A stretch of 24,128 bases of DNA from a virus. Made by a program: the position numbers and the translations under genes. The stretch covers positions 1 through 24,128 of IMG/VR virus record IMGVR_UViG_3300032579_000072; one strand, given 5' to 3'. The notes below the pieces were generated by a model that did no database searches, had not been told where the DNA came from, and worked only from the letters and a program-made list of their open reading frames with translations. Below, piece after piece: positions 3,381 to 9,540 of the stretch. Positions within the stretch are counted from its first letter, which is position 1, and every line of letters begins with the position of its first letter.

Positions 3381-3650
3381 CTAAAATGGTACATCAGAAT
3401 CATCAACACGCTTATTCACTTCTTTTGGATAAGCGCCACCTGTATCAGGCTTCCAGTTATCCTCAGACAAGCTAATCAAACTACCTTTAGGGGTTTGCTT
3501 AGTCCAGCCAGCAATCTTCAGGGTTTGACCCGCTTTATAGTCCTCTGAGAGCAATAGCGTACCTTTCCAATCAGGAGAGCGCTCATTGGTTTTCTTTTCG
3601 TTCTGAAACAGAACACCTTTGCCCATCTGGGCGATATGACCATTAGCCAT
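3381..3650 (-). CDS. Small putative ssDNA-binding-like protein
   Basis: The frame extends upstream to 3740, but ATG 3650 is chosen: it follows an AGGA ribosome binding site nine bases away and gives MANGHIAQMGKGVLFQNEKK, the usual opening of this protein type. The 89-residue product has GVLFQNEKKTNERSPDWKGT followed by TLKIAGWTKQTPKGSLISLS, which resembles a widespread small phage family with the pattern LF-N-KK...PD-GxI...W-K...G-LSL. It is probably a beta-rich, OB-like fold. The position directly after the RecT-like gene, with an 8-base overlap, suggests a ssDNA-binding or annealing accessory role. That function is inferred from context, not shown by a motif. Confidence 0.6.
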   Translation of the reverse strand: MANGHIAQMGKGVLFQNEKKTNERSPDWKGTLLLSEDYKAGQTLKIAGWTKQTPKGSLISLSEDNWKPDTGGAYPKEVNKRVDDSDVPF

Positions 3651-4467
3651 TGTTGATTTCCTTTCTAATTGCTTGGAGTTTTGATAAAAACTTTGCTGTA
3701 GTATTGCCGTCAAATGTTTTTGTATAGGCTTCATTGACATCTCTAAACGCCTTTATCTTGGTGAATTTTTCCTCTGCTGTCATCTTGGTAGATTCATGGA
3801 TCTTGGCGTGCATCTCTGCGAAACCATCAATCCAATCATCTTTACAAACATAATGCGCATACGGAACATCATTACCAGGAACATACATCGGCAATGCCAT
3901 ATCAGGGATGTCATCAGGAATAGCGGAAAGATCCACTACGCTAGGAATGACTGATCCCATGTCTTTTAATACGGTAGGCTTGACGGTCTGGGTTTCGAAG
4001 TTTTCGACTTCATCTGGCGAGTAGAACCCCGTAACAGATCCAGGGAAAACTGATCTAATCCCCTCTGAAATACAACGGCTTCTGAGCATCGCTCTGGGAA
4101 ACTTTTGCCATCCGCTTCCTGGTTTAACAAGACCGATTTTGGTAGCTTGTCCAATGGTCCATGTAACCGCAAGGTTACCCCCGTTGGGATGTGAAAAAAC
4201 TCCTGTAACTTGCTCATCTGTGTATTCCTTCCATTCGACTTTGCCACCTGCATTTTGGAAACGGGCAAGCATCGCATCAGCCTTCAATGCGGGTCTGCCT
4301 TGGATTATGTGAAAGTCACGAGCTGCCGTTGCAGGATGTAAACCTTCCGCTTGTGCTACCGCCATTAGTGCTAAAACACTATTAGTGTCCTTCATACCAA
4401 ACAGACCAGACTTAGCTATTGCTTGTGCCATCTGCTCCATCTCGTTAAAACTAACGATATTGCTCAT
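3643..4467 (-). CDS. recT: RecT-like single-strand annealing recombinase
   Basis: The 274-residue protein has the layout of RecT/Bet-type annealing proteins. An N-terminal helical part is followed by GLHPATAARDFHIIQGRPAL (residues 42-61), KADAMLARFQNAGG (62-75), WTIGQATKIGL (103-113) and FPRAMLRSRCISEGIR (123-138). These segments form the conserved DNA-annealing core. The C-terminal third is less conserved and charged. Such proteins coat ssDNA made by a partner exonuclease and anneal it to complementary strands. The partner is encoded directly upstream (YqaJ-like, 4551-5450), separated only by a tiny frame, making a classic exonuclease/annealing pair. ATG 4467 follows a GGAG ribosome binding site. 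The family is clear, the symbol less so. Confidence 0.8.
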   Translation of the reverse strand: MSNIVSFNEMEQMAQAIAKSGLFGMKDTNSVLALMAVAQAEGLHPATAARDFHIIQGRPALKADAMLARFQNAGGKVEWKEYTDEQVTGVFSHPNGGNLAVTWTIGQATKIGLVKPGSGWQKFPRAMLRSRCISEGIRSVFPGSVTGFYSPDEVENFETQTVKPTVLKDMGSVIPSVVDLSAIPDDIPDMALPMYVPGNDVPYAHYVCKDDWIDGFAEMHAKIHESTKMTAEEKFTKIKAFRDVNEAYTKTFDGNTTAKFLSKLQAIRKEINNG

Positions 4468-4550
4468 GTAAATTTCTCCGCTAAAGTTAGGATTGTGTCG
4501 ATGACTGAGGATGCAGCCATTACATATATTGCGAGGTCAATGTTGTTCAT
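4464..4550 (-). CDS. 28-residue hypothetical hydrophobic peptide
   Basis: A short frame, MNNIDLAIYVMAASSVIDTI plus eight residues, fills the space between the exonuclease stop (4551-4553, directly adjacent) and the RecT-like start, whose ATG overlaps its TGA. The peptide is hydrophobic enough to be membrane-inserting or amphipathic. No ribosome binding site of its own is obvious, since the exonuclease gene ends immediately before it, so translation would depend on re-initiation. Its main effect could be to carry ribosomes from the exonuclease to the annealing protein gene. No family is recognised, and it may be only a leader frame. Confidence 0.35.
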   Translation of the reverse strand: MNNIDLAIYVMAASSVIDTILTLAEKFT

Positions 4551-5450
4551 TTATTTCACCAAAAATCTCCTACTGCCCATTGTTTCTACTACGAACTGCT
4601 CATAAATATCAGGCATGGCACTCTGAAACAGTGATGCTGAGAACTTCTTAGAGCTTTTAGAGGACTTCCAAGAAACTAATGTCTGTCCATCCACTGTTCT
4701 AATCTCCTGGCACTCTCCCATAAGATTACGGACAGCCACTTCAATCTGCTCCTCAGTAGCTTCAAGGTGTTTAATCTGATTCTTGACATCCCGTAATTGA
4801 GCGATAGCCAACTCAACTTGCTGTGTAGCCGTAACCACCGCAGTAGAGGATGACGGGTAAATGATCTTAGTTTGCTCAATTGTTTCTGCTGGCGGAAGCG
4901 TACCCGCTTGGCAATGACCCCAAACTGTAGCCATTTTCTGTATGAGATCATCTTTTTCTTGGTCTGAAATAGTAAATTCAAAGGTATGAAACTCTTGACC
5001 ACCAAATAAAACAGCCAAAAAGATCCGATTAACATTGTGGCAAGCAGCTTCGTGGACAAGTTGTGCGTAATCAGCATCAGGAATCCGATTAGTGTCGGGA
5101 TCAAACTTAGAGCGAACTGCTGCGTTGTAGTTTTTAGCTTCAACAAGCACACCACCATCAGCACTAATGAAATCAAAATGAGATTTAAACCAAGTATGCT
5201 TTGAATGGGTAATCGAATAATCAGCATCTTTTAACTCCATCTTTAAACGATCTTGAGCCAGCTTGCCAATCAGGGGTTGCATAACATGACCCATCTGCAC
5301 TGCTTCCACGCCTGAGAGGTCTTTTAACTCTTTCTTACCTTGCTTCTCTAGGATCACATCTACCATCTTGCCATTAGCGACCTTACGACTGTCACCAGAC
5401 CAGATAGCAGAACGCCTTATCTCTGGTGCAAAATCTGCTTGATCGTTCAT
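4551..5450 (-). CDS. YqaJ-type phage exonuclease (PD-(D/E)XK)
   Basis: The 299-residue protein has the lambda-exonuclease/YqaJ nuclease fold. GHVMQPLIGKLAQDRL (residues 54-69) is the alpha helix with the early acidic/Gln pattern. SHFDFIS contains the catalytic Asp93, and VLVEAKNY gives the Glu104-x-Lys106 pair. YAQLVHEA (128-135) provides the conserved Gln. The C-terminal part, about 210-250, is a predicted coiled coil (VELAIAQLRDVKNQI region), and the last about 60 residues are of unknown fold. Such enzymes resect double-stranded ends 5' to 3' to give ssDNA for the partner annealing protein, encoded just downstream. All catalytic residues are visible. The start overlaps the preceding gene by four bases (ATGA). 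Confidence 0.85.
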   Translation of the reverse strand: MNDQADFAPEIRRSAIWSGDSRKVANGKMVDVILEKQGKKELKDLSGVEAVQMGHVMQPLIGKLAQDRLKMELKDADYSITHSKHTWFKSHFDFISADGGVLVEAKNYNAAVRSKFDPDTNRIPDADYAQLVHEAACHNVNRIFLAVLFGGQEFHTFEFTISDQEKDDLIQKMATVWGHCQAGTLPPAETIEQTKIIYPSSSTAVVTATQQVELAIAQLRDVKNQIKHLEATEEQIEVAVRNLMGECQEIRTVDGQTLVSWKSSKSSKKFSASLFQSAMPDIYEQFVVETMGSRRFLVK

Positions 5451-5647
5451 TTGCGAGCCTCCATCATTGTGTCAGCCCATTTATATGCTGCCTCGCATAC
5501 ATAAGGAATCATCTCGGGTGATTGATTATTAGGTATTAAAGCAACAATTATTTTGGATGCAAAGTAATCTCGTAAGTCCATGCCGACTTGATTTTCAACA
5601 GTTCTACCGCTACGATCTAGCGTCATAGGATTTGGAAATGCTTTCAT
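5447..5647 (-). CDS. Conserved small phage protein (MDLRDYFA-type)
   Basis: The 66-residue product contains VGMDLRDYFASKIIVALIPN in the middle and ends AYKWADTMMEARK. The pattern G-M-(D/T)-LRDYFAAKA...A-Y-(F/W)AD-M-AR is a widespread phage and prophage protein of unknown function, often found near recombination or replication genes. Here it is directly upstream of, and overlaps by four bases, the exonuclease gene. It is helical, without catalytic motifs. The overlap with the upstream coiled-coil gene is also four bases. Confidence 0.75.
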   Translation of the reverse strand: MKAFPNPMTLDRSGRTVENQVGMDLRDYFASKIIVALIPNNQSPEMIPYVCEAAYKWADTMMEARK

Positions 5648-5910
5648 TCTGTGATCTCCAAGATAGTTTTGATGATTTCACGATAGTTTTCAATGCGACC
5701 AATAAGAACTGAGATCTCCTCATCTGATTCCTCAATGCTCTTTTTAAACTCGTTTAGCTCATCGCACATCTGAATGATCTGATCGTCTTGCCTTGCCACT
5801 AGGTTTTTAAGGCGATCTACTTCTTTTTTGGTGTAAGCATCATTGATCTTCTTATCAACTTTATTTACTGGAAACTTAGGTTCATTCTTGCTACTTGGTG
5901 TTTTTGACAT
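5644..5910 (-). CDS. Coiled-coil hypothetical protein
   Basis: ATG 5910 is preferred over the in-frame ATG at 5922 because GGAG lies six bases upstream of it. The 88-residue protein has a lysine-rich N-terminus (SKTPSSKNEPKF), then a long helix from about residue 30 to the end (VDRLKNLVARQDDQI... to ...REIIKTILEITE) with coiled-coil spacing. It is probably oligomeric; the role is unknown. Its leader contains the repeated 11-base motif described at 5923-5933, which here also contains the TAA stop of the upstream gene. Confidence 0.65.
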   Translation of the reverse strand: MSKTPSSKNEPKFPVNKVDKKINDAYTKKEVDRLKNLVARQDDQIIQMCDELNEFKKSIEESDEEISVLIGRIENYREIIKTILEITE

Positions 5911-5922
5911 GATTAACTCCAT

Positions 5923-5933
5923 TAGTTAGGTTA
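5923..5933 (-). promoter_or_regulatory. Leader motif TAACCTAACTA, copy 1
   Basis: Exact copy of an 11-base motif on the minus strand, two bases before the GGAG ribosome binding site of the coiled-coil gene. It overlaps the stop codon of the upstream gene (TAA, 5931-5933). The function is unknown. Confidence 0.6.
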
Positions 5934-6149
5934 TTTACCAAAAGGGATTGCTGAAAGATCGTCAAGATCCTCTACTTCAATAAAAGCAAACCACTTCGCA
6001 TCTTCCCCGCATCCGCTTATGGGTAAGTTACGGCTATTGTTTGCTGTCATTTTCTTTTGTAGTCCCGTCACCATGTCGTGAGGGCGTTGGGGTGACAAGC
6101 ACTGTAAAGTGTCTTGGTCTAGGTGTTTGCAATTAACGCAATATTCCAT
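5931..6149 (-). CDS. Cysteine-rich small phage protein
   Basis: The 72-residue protein starts MEYCVNCKHLDQDTLQCLSP, with Cys4, Cys7 and Cys17, and has a later SGCGEDAKWF segment. The arrangement CxxC-H...C...D-VTG...N-R...CG-x(2-3)-WF resembles a recurring small phage family that probably binds zinc. Its function is unknown. An AGGA ribosome binding site is six to seven bases upstream of ATG 6149, and an imperfect copy of the leader motif precedes it. Its stop lies inside the motif copy serving the next gene. Confidence 0.7.
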   Translation of the reverse strand: MEYCVNCKHLDQDTLQCLSPQRPHDMVTGLQKKMTANNSRNLPISGCGEDAKWFAFIEVEDLDDLSAIPFGK

Positions 6150-6164
6150 GATATTTCCTTTATA

Positions 6165-6175
6165 TAGTTAGGCTT
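6165..6175 (-). promoter_or_regulatory. Leader motif, copy 2 (imperfect)
   Basis: Minus strand reads AAGCCTAACTA, nine of eleven positions matching the other copies. It lies five bases before the AGGA ribosome binding site of the cysteine-rich gene 5931-6149. Confidence 0.5.
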
Positions 6176-6223
6176 TGATGTACTACAGTTAGAACATTAC
6201 TACATTACTACGATTAGTGCAAT

Positions 6224-6382
6224 TTATTTGTTAGGTGTTGTTTTTTTATCTTCGGTCACTACATCGCCTTGGGGATTGATGTAATAAGGCGTACCTGTTT
6301 CTGTTGCTCTGATCCATTCTCGGTACTGAGCTGCTTGGTTCATCTCTTGCCACTTCTGCGCATCTTTATCTGCTTTGTTCAT
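6224..6382 (-). CDS. 52-residue hypothetical protein
   Basis: The product MNKADKDAQKWQEMNQAAQY... is strongly helical and charged in its first half. It then has a TGTPYYINPQGDV segment and a lysine/threonine-rich end. A GGAG ribosome binding site is spaced seven bases from ATG 6382, which supports translation. The YYINPQGDV piece looks like a short beta hairpin of the WW-like or tail-end type, but no family is recognised. It is separated from its neighbours by about 75-95 bases on either side, unlike most genes here. Upstream lies an 11-base perfect palindrome (TAATCCGATTA, 6412-6422), and about 65 bases upstream there is a rearranged version of the leader motif. Confidence 0.6.
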   Translation of the reverse strand: MNKADKDAQKWQEMNQAAQYREWIRATETGTPYYINPQGDVVTEDKKTTPNK

Positions 6383-6411
6383 TTTGTTGCACTCCTTTAA
6401 AAAGTATGATC

Positions 6412-6422
6412 TAATCCGATTA
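6412..6422. repeat. Short perfect inverted repeat
   Basis: TAATC-C-GATTA, an 11-base odd palindrome in the leader of the 52-residue gene, about 30 bases before its ATG. It could be an operator half-site pair; no binding protein is known. Confidence 0.35.
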
Positions 6423-6478
6423 AGTTTGTTTTAGTGGTGGTTTTAGGTTAGTTATGCGATGGGGGCATCCATAACGAT

Positions 6479-6709
6479 TTAAGACCACTCACCATTAAAA
6501 CCACCATTAAAGCGAACTACTACGGGGCTATAACCCAGCCCTCCTAAACATTGTGGTGATGGATAGGGATAAACAAGGCAGCTACCATCTGGCGGACCGT
6601 TACTGGACAGCACCGCTTTAGTTAAGTGCCATAGATAAACGATAACCACTCTCTGAAAAGAGATCCCCCACCGTAAGGCGGGTAAGGTTCTTATTCTCTC
6701 GGGGTTCAT
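6479..6709 (-). CDS. Doubtful 76-residue hypothetical protein
   Basis: The frame runs without a stop between two better-supported small genes, starting 15 bases after the TGA of the membrane peptide gene. The product begins MNPERIRTLPALRWG, has a hydrophobic stretch (VVIVYLW, about residues 21-27) and ends in a glycine-, tyrosine- and proline-rich tail (PSPQCLGGLGYSPVVVRFNG). No ribosome binding site is visible before ATG 6709, and the protein resembles nothing I recognise. The codon choice in the second half looks like that of neighbouring genes, which is mild support. It could be a real accessory gene or a chance frame. Confidence 0.35.
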   Translation of the reverse strand: MNPERIRTLPALRWGISFQRVVIVYLWHLTKAVLSSNGPPDGSCLVYPYPSPQCLGGLGYSPVVVRFNGGFNGEWS

Positions 6710-6724
6710 GGGGTCTTGGGGTTC

Positions 6725-6883
6725 TCACAATGCTAACAGTAGCCAAACCAGTAGCAAACCACCAAATACAGCTACTAAGTCAATTAACTGATCTTTACTT
6801 ATCAGCCCTTGCACACGCATGGGGGAATATTTCTTCTTTATAAAGATTTTGCGTTGAATAGTATAAATATCATTATTTCTCAT
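6725..6883 (-). CDS. Small membrane protein (52 residues)
   Basis: The product begins MRNNDIYTIQRKIFIKKKYS, basic and soluble, and ends in one hydrophobic segment, LVAVFGGLLLVWLLLAL (residues 36-52), which is long enough to cross the membrane. With the positively charged side inside, it would be a C-tail-anchored single-pass protein. A GAGG ribosome binding site sits five bases before ATG 6883, preceded by an exact copy of the 11-base leader motif. It has no homologue I recognise. Small phage membrane proteins of this shape include exclusion and lysis-control proteins, but the position among early genes makes lysis less likely. Confidence 0.65.
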   Translation of the reverse strand: MRNNDIYTIQRKIFIKKKYSPMRVQGLISKDQLIDLVAVFGGLLLVWLLLAL

Positions 6884-6898
6884 AAATACCTCGAAAAT

Positions 6899-6909
6899 TA
6901 GTTAGGTTA
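6899..6909 (-). promoter_or_regulatory. Leader motif TAACCTAACTA, copy 3
   Basis: Exact copy, six bases upstream of the GAGG ribosome binding site of the small membrane protein gene 6725-6883. The sequence immediately before it on the minus strand (TACTAACC) partly repeats the motif. Confidence 0.6.
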
Positions 6910-6923
6910 GTAAGATAAAACTA

Positions 6924-7022
6924 TTAAATACCTTTAAAACACTTTAAAACAAACGCTACAGCGTTTTCACAGGGTAAGTGATACCTGAGTACCACTAAAC
7001 CCGTAAAGCGCTCTATTGCCAC
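6924..7022 (-). CDS. Possible 32-residue peptide with GTG start
   Basis: A frame beginning at GTG 7022, inside the end of the preceding gene, reads MAIERFTGLVVLRYHLPCEN and twelve more residues to TAA at 6924-6926. An AGGG ribosome binding site lies six bases before the GTG, and the overlap style matches the rest of the train. The peptide is mildly hydrophobic with two cysteines. It is too short to classify. Without it, bases 6884-7012 would be an unusual gap in this dense region. Confidence 0.35.
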   Translation of the reverse strand: MAIERFTGLVVLRYHLPCENAVAFVLKCFKGI

Positions 7023-7129
7023 AATTTGCCCTGTTTAACTGTAGATCGCCAGGCGTTATAACTTAGCGCTGTGATACCTTGCTTAGCACATAAGTAACGA
7101 TAAGCGCTGTATTTATCCCTAGCGCTCAT
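7013..7129 (-). CDS. 38-residue hypothetical protein
   Basis: The ATG at 7129 overlaps the TGA of the preceding gene (ATGA), and the frame ends with TAG at 7013-7015. The product, MSARDKYSAYRYLCAKQGIT followed by ALSYNAWRSTVKQGKLWQ, is small, basic and tyrosine-rich. It looks like a compact helical domain: the spacing of YRYLCAKQGITALSYNAWRSTV fits a helix-turn-helix, so it may bind DNA. Its DNA includes three of four AGCGCT palindromes clustered in this region. No family is recognised. Confidence 0.5.
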   Translation of the reverse strand: MSARDKYSAYRYLCAKQGITALSYNAWRSTVKQGKLWQ

Positions 7130-7326
7130 GCTGTTAGATCCTCCCCTAGAATTGGATAGCGTGGTATGTAACCTCCGTTAATGATCTTGCAATACTCTAT
7201 CCATTCCTGATTAGTCATTTCATAGCATCCTGGTGTAGGTGTTGCAAGTTGTGATCCATTTTCCTGCCTAGTATGTTTTACTATCCTGCCAGTAGATAGT
7301 TTTATATCGGCTCTTACTTGATCCAT
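7126..7326 (-). CDS. 66-residue hypothetical protein
   Basis: ATG 7326 (MDQVRADIKL) is chosen because GGAGG lies four bases upstream. The frame continues upstream to 7365 but without such a signal, and the leader motif occupies that stretch. The protein starts with a beta-rich segment (ADIKLSTGRIVKHTRQENGS), then has GCYEMTNQEWIEYCKIINGG, which is helical. No catalytic motif is visible and no family is recognised. It lies directly downstream of the ArdC-like gene, so an anti-host role is possible from context only. Confidence 0.6.
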   Translation of the reverse strand: MDQVRADIKLSTGRIVKHTRQENGSQLATPTPGCYEMTNQEWIEYCKIINGGYIPRYPILGEDLTA

Positions 7327-7337
7327 AAATCCTCCAA

Positions 7338-7348
7338 TAGTTAGGTTA
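7338..7348 (-). promoter_or_regulatory. Leader motif TAACCTAACTA, copy 4
   Basis: Exact copy, two bases before the GGAGG ribosome binding site of gene 7126-7326. The CCT of the motif could pair with AGG of the ribosome binding site, giving a small hairpin that would hide it. Confidence 0.6.
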
Positions 7349-7409
7349 AGACTTGCACAATGCAAGCCCTATAGATCCCTGGTATCAAGGATCTATAAGA
7401 CGGCATTGT

Positions 7410-8288
7410 TTAGGCTGCTGCTTGGTTAGTTATTGCATCTAAATTGTTGATGTAATCGGCTGCCTTTTGTGCCAGTGCTGCAGCGTTAAATATCGCCTTA
7501 TTGTCATTTTTAAGGCACTGTAGCCAATTGCCGATGTAGTCAGCGTGCTGCAGCTCACCTTCAATACCATAATCAGCGCATAAAAATGCAGCGCCCATTT
7601 CCGCTACTAATTCCTCAAAAGCGTAAGCACTATCAGCAAAGCGTTTGCCTTTTGTACGATCTAAACGATGCTCAGCGCCTGACCAGTGAGTCAGCTCATG
7701 CAATACAGTGGCATAGTAGTGGCTCTCACTTAAAAAAGTAGAGCGATCAGGAATTGTGATGCTATCTGAACTAGGTCTATAAAATGCCCTACCACCACCG
7801 TGCGAGATCTGAGCGCCAGTCTTAATAATGCGATCATCTAAGGCGGGTACTGGATTAAAGGTAGCGATGACAGGCTCAGGTTTAGTGATCTCTAATCCCT
7901 CAATCTGATCTGAATTGAAAACATAGTAAGACTTCAGCAAGGCATAAGTAGATTTATCAGGGTTTAGATCAGTAGGCTTAATCTCGCTCTTAGTAACCTG
8001 AGAATAAAATACTACTTGCGTACCCTTTTCGCCCTTGCGCACATTCCCGCCCATTTCCTGCCATTGCTTGAATGATCCCCAGATAGGTGAGCTGTAACCT
8101 GACATACCTAGAATTAAACGGTTAACGCCTGAATACTCTTTTTTAGATACGATATTGCGATCAGCTCCGCCTACGCTGCCTGATTTCCAGGGTTTAATCC
8201 AAGGCGTGATCCCTGCCTCTAATTTAGCGATGATATTGTTGGTAACGCTGTCATATACGCTAATGCGGTTTACTTGTGCTGTAGTCAT
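7410..8288 (-). CDS. ardC: ArdC-like antirestriction protein
   Basis: The 292-residue protein has the two-part structure of ArdC/TraC-type antirestriction proteins. The N-terminal ssDNA-binding domain covers about residues 5-125, with AGITPWIKPW (25-34), YSGVNRLIL (52-60), WGSFKQWQEMGGNVRKGEKG (70-89) and QVVFY (91-95). The C-terminal zincin-like domain has an HExxH motif (HELTH, 197-201) followed by a third ligand region with acidic residues, FEELVAE (224-230). All motif residues are intact and the length is normal. Such proteins protect incoming DNA from restriction enzymes. It is the first gene of the leftward train, as expected of an early product. GAGG lies seven bases from ATG 8288, with an exact leader motif copy just before. 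Confidence 0.9.
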   Translation of the reverse strand: MTTAQVNRISVYDSVTNNIIAKLEAGITPWIKPWKSGSVGGADRNIVSKKEYSGVNRLILGMSGYSSPIWGSFKQWQEMGGNVRKGEKGTQVVFYSQVTKSEIKPTDLNPDKSTYALLKSYYVFNSDQIEGLEITKPEPVIATFNPVPALDDRIIKTGAQISHGGGRAFYRPSSDSITIPDRSTFLSESHYYATVLHELTHWSGAEHRLDRTKGKRFADSAYAFEELVAEMGAAFLCADYGIEGELQHADYIGNWLQCLKNDNKAIFNAAALAQKAADYINNLDAITNQAAA

Positions 8289-8303
8289 GGTAGATCCTCT
8301 TAG

Positions 8304-8314
8304 TAGTTAGGTTA
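8304..8314 (-). promoter_or_regulatory. Leader motif TAACCTAACTA, copy 5
   Basis: Exact copy, four bases before the GAGG ribosome binding site of the ArdC-like gene. This is the most upstream member of the five copies. Confidence 0.6.
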
Positions 8315-8337
8315 TGAGATTAGCTCTCATAGGTATG

Positions 8338-8777: not shown

Positions 8778-9503
8778 CTAGTTTTTTAGACTTTGCTTAA
8801 CGATGACATTCTTTGACAGATCGAATGAATCAGAGGCGTTGGTGTAGATCAGGCGTGATAACACCTTGTCTTGATTGAAGATATTGTGGGTAGTCCACAT
8901 TGGACCAGTATCCACACCCTCGATTAACTGCACGCCTTTGCTAAGCACACCGATGTCAGTGACCGTGTAATGGCTCTCAAGAGTGCTAGGAACGATGCCT
9001 GTAGGATGGGTAGTAATGACTTTTAACCCCTCATTTGTTAATTCCATGACCCGTTTTTTAAAGAAATCCGCATTAAAGTCTGGTAATTGCCCTGACTGTG
9101 GGGGAGAGTTAATGACTAGGAGGTCAAACTCATACCTAGACTGCTCTCTCAGAGCAGGATACTCGAACAAGAGATCTTCCTTGCAAGCTATAGGCGAGGA
9201 AACTTCTAACAGGTCTGATAGATGGTCAAACCATTCCATGTGAAATTGCGCCCACTGCCGTCTAAGAGGGTGGTTGTGAAAGTAGTTGTCCCTGCCAATC
9301 CAAGCGTTAATAGAGCCTGGTGGGATGGATAGATCTGCTAAGAGGATGCTTACGCCCTCACACAAGGGTTGTAGCTGGCTATGGTACTGCGGATGGCAAT
9401 GGTGAACAAAGTCCATGTCACTATCTTGCTCACAAACCTTACGCAAATAGTTCAGATGAATAAGGTTATCGCCTAGATGATATTCGTTGTATGTGTGTAT
9501 CAT
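8778..9503 (-). CDS. GT-B-like glycosyltransferase (heptosyltransferase-related)
   Basis: The 241-residue protein begins with EYHLGDNLIHLNYLRK (residues 7-22), the G-D-x-(L/I)-x(2)-(L/N) glycine-rich start of GT9/heptosyltransferase-like GT-B enzymes. It ends with VITTHPTGI (162-170) and LIEGVDTGPMW (193-203). The latter resembles the conserved G-x-D-T-G-(P/A)-x-H/W segment that contacts the nucleotide sugar. It is shorter than full heptosyltransferases (about 320-350), so it is a compact phage version or a remote relative. Substrate is unknown. It is separated from the leftward train by the repeat-rich region and starts only 37 bases from the divergent rightward genes. No ribosome binding site is visible before ATG 9503. 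Confidence 0.65.
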   Translation of the reverse strand: MIHTYNEYHLGDNLIHLNYLRKVCEQDSDMDFVHHCHPQYHSQLQPLCEGVSILLADLSIPPGSINAWIGRDNYFHNHPLRRQWAQFHMEWFDHLSDLLEVSSPIACKEDLLFEYPALREQSRYEFDLLVINSPPQSGQLPDFNADFFKKRVMELTNEGLKVITTHPTGIVPSTLESHYTVTDIGVLSKGVQLIEGVDTGPMWTTHNIFNQDKVLSRLIYTNASDSFDLSKNVIVKQSLKN

Positions 9504-9516: not shown

Positions 9517-9540
9517 GAGTTAAGTTATAAGGAGAATAGC

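Follow-up and report, generated by a model that had tools for sequence, protein, structure and literature searches.

A putative multi-target antisense RNA at the rusA 3′ end and its candidate docking sites beside the early ribosome-binding sites of a phage family

In the leader of phage T7 gene 10, a hairpin is followed by the epsilon element and then by the Shine-Dalgarno sequence (SD). Short start-proximal repeats, the start-associated sequences (SAS) and extended start-associated sequences (ESAS), are known from the Cluster K mycobacteriophages and the Microbacterium EF phages, where about half of them are preceded by inverted repeats (PMC3203893, PMC7302621). Among antisense RNAs, GcvB pairs immediately 5′ of the yifK SD and represses translation (PMC3879156), and among phages the c4 and sar RNAs act as repressors that pair at ribosome-binding sites or interfere with initiation (PMC12197685). 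The DNA considered here, IMG/VR virus record IMGVR_UViG_3300032579_000072, was analysed over its full 24,128 bases (the window). Its leader motif, CCUAACUA, is read from sequence comparisons, with a probability of about 0.85, as the base-pairing target of a phage-encoded multi-target antisense RNA beside the early ribosome-binding sites.

Early genes form a leftward train in the window (about 9503 to 341) and structural genes a rightward one, and all coordinates given below refer to the minus strand. The initial annotation had placed five copies of an 11-base motif directly upstream of ribosome-binding sites in the early train, and all five are present. The sequence TAACCTAACTA is exact at 8304-8314 (target 1, core 8304-8311), before the ArdC-like antirestriction gene (7410-8288); at 7338-7348 (target 2, core 7338-7345), before gene 7126-7326; at 6899-6909 (target 3, core 6899-6906), before gene 6725-6883; and at 5923-5933 (target 5, core 5923-5930), before gene 5644-5910. 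The remaining copy, AAGCCTAACTA at 6165-6175 (target 4, core 6165-6172), matches nine of 11 positions and precedes gene 5931-6149, whose TAA stop codon lies inside target 5, as had been noted. The true starts behind targets 5 and 2 are ATG 5910 and ATG 7326, respectively, corrected from the sequence where the open reading frame (ORF) list had upstream ATG/TTG codons. Conservation does not extend to the leading TAA, and the true core is CCTAACTA; MW202753, one of two named relatives, reads TGTCCTAACTA. Allowing up to two mismatches, the motif is not enriched overall in the window (11 found vs 8.4 expected). All five exact CCTAACTA cores on the early strand lie within 24 nucleotides (nt) 5′ of an SD (P about 3.5e-8), although such zones cover only 3.2% of it. 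The same holds for all six occurrences of CCTAACT (P about 1e-9).

The recombination genes farther down the train had been thought to lack the motif, but this proved wrong for the recT-like gene (3643-4467), which is preceded at 4484-4491 by a weaker match, CCTAACTT (= CCTAACTTTAGCGGAG; target 6); recT relatives often carry CCTAACTA at the corresponding place. In the window this word apparently falls within a small ORF (region 4467-4551), where it reads as CTA ACT codons; relatives conserve the ORF, which runs over the recT start. In some relatives the word lies over a stop codon or outside any obvious ORF.

The same placement 5′ of the SD, rather than random positions, was found when related phages were searched for the motif and its spacing to start codons. 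These relatives are about 35 kb and largely metagenomic, with MW202753 and MW202825 (Manatee Spring) as named members, and they form a freshwater family. Their contigs are fragments, so targets missing from some of them are weak evidence, and related phages share ancestry and are not independent samples. An unbiased count of 7-mers upstream of their SDs put ACCTAAC, CTAACTA, CCTAACT and AACCTAA at the top (22- to 24-fold enriched); the other enriched 7-mers, GCACTACTCA, CGCCTACT and GAGTTTCC, proved to come from orthologous coding sequence and are not motifs. Nearly every full-length motif is followed by an SD. Alignment of 160 distinct leaders gives a CCTAACT core with A at position 8 in 87% and an A-rich 5′ flank; the SD begins 0-8 nt beyond the core in all but two of them and the start codon lies 15-32 nt beyond it, and no other element is in register (information content never above 0.39 bits between -40 and -5). 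Such leaders occur on the early strand only, before about 50 unrelated protein clusters. Within 40 nt upstream of the relatives' cores, additional CCTAA and CTAAT words are seen (20 vs 4.8 and 39 vs 15.1 in shuffles, respectively), hinting at second binding sites, though CTAA is also a common hairpin loop.

The partner was sought as the exact complement of the core, TAGTTAGG, on the same strand. Most family genomes that include this region have the word, in nearly every case as a single copy, and its position is orthologous, spanning the rusA stop codon. In the window the putative partner element spans 2318-2390 and overlaps the end of the rusA-like gene (2364-2750; its relatives are annotated RusA). 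It is predicted to form helices P1 (2384-2390 with 2326-2332), P2 (a hairpin, 2373-2379 with 2358-2364) and P3 (2339-2344 with 2318-2323); the loop of P3 encloses the 3′ strand of P1, so that P1 and P3 make a pseudoknot. Between P2 and P3 the seed AGTTAGG (2351-2357; TAGTTAGG at 2351-2358) is left exposed, and AGUUAGG is the exact complement of CCUAACU.

The fold is supported by covariation. Among 25 diverse sequences aligned with MAFFT, some of which came from lists selected by their stems, the share of paired cells is 95% (100% in P1) and both sides have changed in 17 of 18 pairs; slid versions of the fold give 26-39%, and none of 500 shuffles does as well. The first detection of the fold required stems and is not evidence alone; extraction behind rusA by GTTAGG, with no stem criteria, gave 66 distinct elements, nearly all with the same helices as judged by eye. 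When a fold finder was applied to 103 distinct rusA ends, 66 had the fold (59 with GTTAGG and seven with another seed), none of 60 shuffles reached its score, and the remaining ends showed no comparable fold except three weak, chance-like cases. Between phages the rusA stop codon takes positions from -13 to +4 counted from the seed, whereas the RNA does not move, which argues that the constraint acts on the RNA. RusA relatives are also found in Methylophilales phage MEP301 and in MW202520; the fold is absent from unrelated RusA genes, and the single MEP301 end scored by the finder is without it. No Rfam family, including GcvB and the C4 RNA, matched anywhere in the window at gathering score, positions 2260-2460 gave only four matches up to E 5, all unrelated and at chance level, and the element DNA had no match in the phage collection. 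Thus, the partner appears to be a structured RNA family without an Rfam entry. The gene behind it (region 2297-2317 in the window) varies among relatives, and CCTAA stands in its own leader in L453, L164 and L260; the element may regulate this neighbouring gene in cis.

Phages in which the seed differs were compared with leaders from the same contigs. The seed/leader class pairs are UGUUAGG/CCUAAC(A/G), GUUAGGACA/UGUCCUAAC, GUUUAGGA/UCCUAAAC, GUUGAG/CUCAAC and GUUAGAA/UUCUAAC. Opposite leader base 7 most phages have a seed A, and 125 of their 135 leaders have T there (CCTAACT). In the three phages with a seed T (L605, L606 and L608), the leader base is A or G in 12 of 14 cases (CCTAACA or CCTAACG), including genes that have T in relatives (Fisher 5e-12 for the difference between the two classes), and with a seed G (L504 and L082) it is C or T in seven of eight. 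Matching extends into the flank: where the seed continues as GGACA (MW202753 and L477) the leaders read TGTCC or GTCC (TGTCC in three of three in MW202753, one of whose leaders has 15 nt perfectly complementary to its own seed, TTAAGTGTCCTAACT), and where it continues as GGAA (L501 and L082) nearly all leaders have TTCC. Over six flank positions leaders make 2.98 pairs with their own seeds vs 2.28 (sd 0.14) with swapped seeds, and none of 20,000 permutations equals the own-seed value; the leaders had been found through the word CCTAA, so only flanking positions were free in this comparison, and shared ancestry makes the permutation values overstate independence.

Three elements without GTTAGG, found through rusA or terminase, allowed the leader word to be predicted from the seed and then looked up. 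In L118 (seed GTTTAGGA) the predicted TCCTAAAC stands before SDs in two of two occurrences in 17.9 kb; in L451 (GTTGAG) the predicted CTCAAC does so in five of nine (P 2e-5); and in L465 (GTTAGAA) TTCTAAC does so in five of six (P 2e-6). None of the three has CCTAACT near an SD. L455 is suggestive, with TAACTAA before an SD in two of three cases. Successive 6-mers over 266 nt in 18 genomes give a sharp footprint, with 72 complementary leaders at the seed vs a mean of 3.5 (maximum 10) elsewhere. These comparisons show that the docking site and the partner RNA have changed together across the family, and it is very probable that the pairing of seed and leaders is real.

Predicted duplexes of the window's own seed with its six targets range from -10.4 to -15.5 kcal/mol: -15.5 for target 1, -12.6 for target 2, -11.0 for each of targets 3 and 5, -13.0 for target 4 and -10.4 for the weaker recT site. 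A further copy-like sequence, TAACTTAACTC at 9517-9527, lies 13 nt before gene 8778-9503, yet does not match the seed.

Many leaders carry a hairpin just 5′ of the core. Stems of at least seven pairs that end no more than 8 nt from the core are present in 34% of leaders, vs 3.2% of shuffles and 2.2% of SD-bearing starts that lack the word. At target 1 the hairpin TATGAGA-GCTAA-TCTCATA (8313-8331) begins shortly after a TATAAT-like box; its stem sequence varies among relatives (TATGCAA/TTGCATA, TATGGGAT/ATCTCATA) with pairing retained. Two hairpins stand in tandem in the target 2 leader (7370-7397 and 7350-7368, together 7350-7397). Of their cells 98.6% are paired in 24 relatives, and 14 of 18 pairs have changed on both sides; none of 500 shuffles reaches this share of paired cells and no slid version is comparable. 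Because these hairpins covary, the leaders are best regarded as RNA elements and not as promoters. In the slot 7126-7407 and its counterparts, the two-hairpin leader is constant and the small gene behind it comes from at least 15 unrelated protein clusters, so that the region behind the antirestriction gene looks like a swap slot with a constant tagged leader.

These features suggest the following scheme. The partner would be a compact RNA of about 75-90 nt, made of the rusA 3′ end and the gap behind it and transcribed in the same leftward early train, in which the P1/P3 pseudoknot and hairpin P2 would hold a single-stranded AGUUAGG seed. Either released or acting from the mRNA, it would form 7-10 nt duplexes with target sites in front of recT, the antirestriction gene and several of the small early genes, with the leader hairpins perhaps keeping the target open. 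The pairing would end 0-8 nt from the SD and would crowd out the 30S subunit, lowering early-gene translation. As transcription would reach rusA about 3.5-6 kb behind the main targets, such repression would act as a delay timer, a built-in early-to-late switch. It is likely that the pairing controls translation of the early set, and one small RNA probably controls translation of most early genes. Repression is favoured over activation with reasonable confidence, since the pairing ends as close to the SD as does that of GcvB on yifK, and since c4 and sar also repress; action in trans, rather than only within one mRNA, is preferred a little less firmly. A broader and quite tentative idea is that this is protein-free control of a whole viral early operon in which an RNA with a diversifying seed, acting in trans, gives each phage a private address: related phages sharing a host would have non-matching codes, amounting to heteroimmunity or competition of a kind, and a foreign gene could join the regulon by arriving behind a tagged leader.

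An RNA-level role had been proposed for the motif in the initial annotation, and the covarying leader hairpins, the folded partner and the matched change of seed and leaders support it strongly. Its suggestion that CCT of the motif pairs with AGG of the ribosome-binding site and hides it is weakly supported: such pairing does exceed that of shuffled motifs (0.33 vs 0.19), but SD exposure is little changed (0.41 vs 0.45) and 45 of the leaders examined have no downstream AGG. Self-pairing also cannot explain why base 7 and bases -1 and -2 change with a distant seed, so self-sequestration is insufficient, and it was set aside as the main mechanism for its weak effect. The alternative proposals of a landing site for an RNA-binding protein and of a promoter element did not hold up. 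Short exact repeats before many early genes would suit a phage promoter or the binding site of a phage protein that recognises RNA or DNA, and TATAAT-like boxes do lie about 30 nt upstream of several copies, but no element stands at a fixed distance or in fixed register, copies lie behind covarying hairpins or over stop codons within the train, and the matched change of word and seed in several seed classes needs no protein, the partner being a phage RNA; explanations of this kind seem very improbable. Hardly more credible is that CCTAACTA serves to enhance translation or to pair with the host ribosome, like the T7 gene 10 epsilon element, with the seed complement incidental. The word is G-free and sits directly 5′ of the SD, where enhancers sit, but its pairing with six betaproteobacterial 16S rRNAs, which may not be those of the host, is no better than that of shuffles (5-7 of 60 are as good), none of the 12 rRNA loci examined contains its full complement, and the leader word changes with the phage seed.

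Two other explanations accept the pairing and differ on what it does, and both are unlikely, though far from negligible. Pairing might activate or stabilise, by freeing the SD from weak CCU-AGG pairing or by shielding the leader from RNase; the excess of CCU pairing with the SD region over shuffled motifs fits this, as do targets behind hairpins that could act as 5′ stabilisers. However, the weakness of the self-pairing described above speaks against it, the SD is not within the leader hairpins, which leaves no strong inhibitory structure for the RNA to open, and a bulky partner paired so close to the SD should block the 30S subunit. Alternatively, seed and leaders might pair solely in cis, on a single long early mRNA whose folding or decay would thereby be affected, with no free regulatory RNA. 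Element and targets share the leftward train, and the gene directly behind the element has a target-like word in L453 and L164. On the other hand, one seed for five or six leaders over 2-6 kb could leave at most one bound per mRNA, and compact, closed folds with an exposed seed are typical of trans-acting RNAs. Several observations count against the favoured scheme as a whole. A promoter and a terminator were looked for around the element in the window and none was found, which also suits the cis explanation and leaves a free small RNA only a candidate. L460 and L462 have the fold behind rusA with seed GUUACGAG (GTTACGAG) and no matching leaders, and the leaders of L450 do not match its own seed. 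In the AGGG seed class, to which the window belongs, leader base -1 is usually A and unpaired; some genomes have merely one to three targets; the duplexes are short (7-10 bp); and the independent seed changes number perhaps six to eight.

The early genes of L462 instead share an AGGGGC-type SD context, and MW202825 has no leader word and, by pattern, no partner element. Across IMG/VR the motif followed by SD and ATG occurs in at least 120 stretches vs 110 for the reversed control, from which no enrichment figure can be drawn. A host-wide leader motif was rejected, as CCTAACTAN{0,8}GGAG gave six matches in 31 genomes of one candidate host family, below the reversed control, although this may not be the host's family; the contig of one relative was binned with a betaproteobacterium. 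The early train also includes a RecE/YqaJ-type exonuclease gene (4551-5450).

Repeated start-proximal phage words such as SAS have had no known partner since their description in 2011, and here a candidate partner with a defined fold was found. The case offers a testable example of one phage RNA governing an early regulon, with natural matched seed-target pairs, and mycobacteriophage SAS could be approached in the same way, by looking for same-strand sequences that are conserved and exactly complementary to the repeat. No earlier description of an RNA family with a co-changing seed and regulon was found in Rfam or in the literature outside subscription journals and preprints.

Comparison with the described systems shows what is shared and what differs. 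Like the T7 gene 10 leader, the leaders here have a hairpin, a G-poor word and an SD in that order, but the sequence differs and the T7 leader is not known to involve a partner RNA. Like SAS and ESAS, the repeats stand only before starts of non-structural genes, of many unrelated families, and some lie over an upstream stop codon. In contrast, the 13-bp SAS consensus GGGATAGGAGCCC contains the SD and lies 3-7 bp from the start, whereas the core here stops 0-8 nt short of the SD and precedes the start by 15-32 nt; the SAS inverted repeats are imperfect 17-bp sequences with a fixed consensus and do not support RNA pairing, whereas the stems here vary in sequence and covary; and a putative partner RNA accompanies the motif here. 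With GcvB of enteric bacteria (PMC3879156) the proposed RNA would share a single-stranded seed, many targets and pairing immediately 5′ of the SD, although the two are unrelated in sequence and the RNA described here is phage-encoded, overlaps rusA, has a predicted pseudoknot and has a seed that changes together with its targets. RNAs of the GcvB kind are also marked by a discrete transcript, by Hfq or a similar chaperone and by repression in trans. The c4 RNA of P1 and P7 and the sar RNA of P22 (PMC12197685) are likewise phage antisense RNAs that pair around the ribosome-binding site of a phage mRNA; they act on one mRNA, ant, whereas the single seed at the rusA 3′ end fits up to six leaders.

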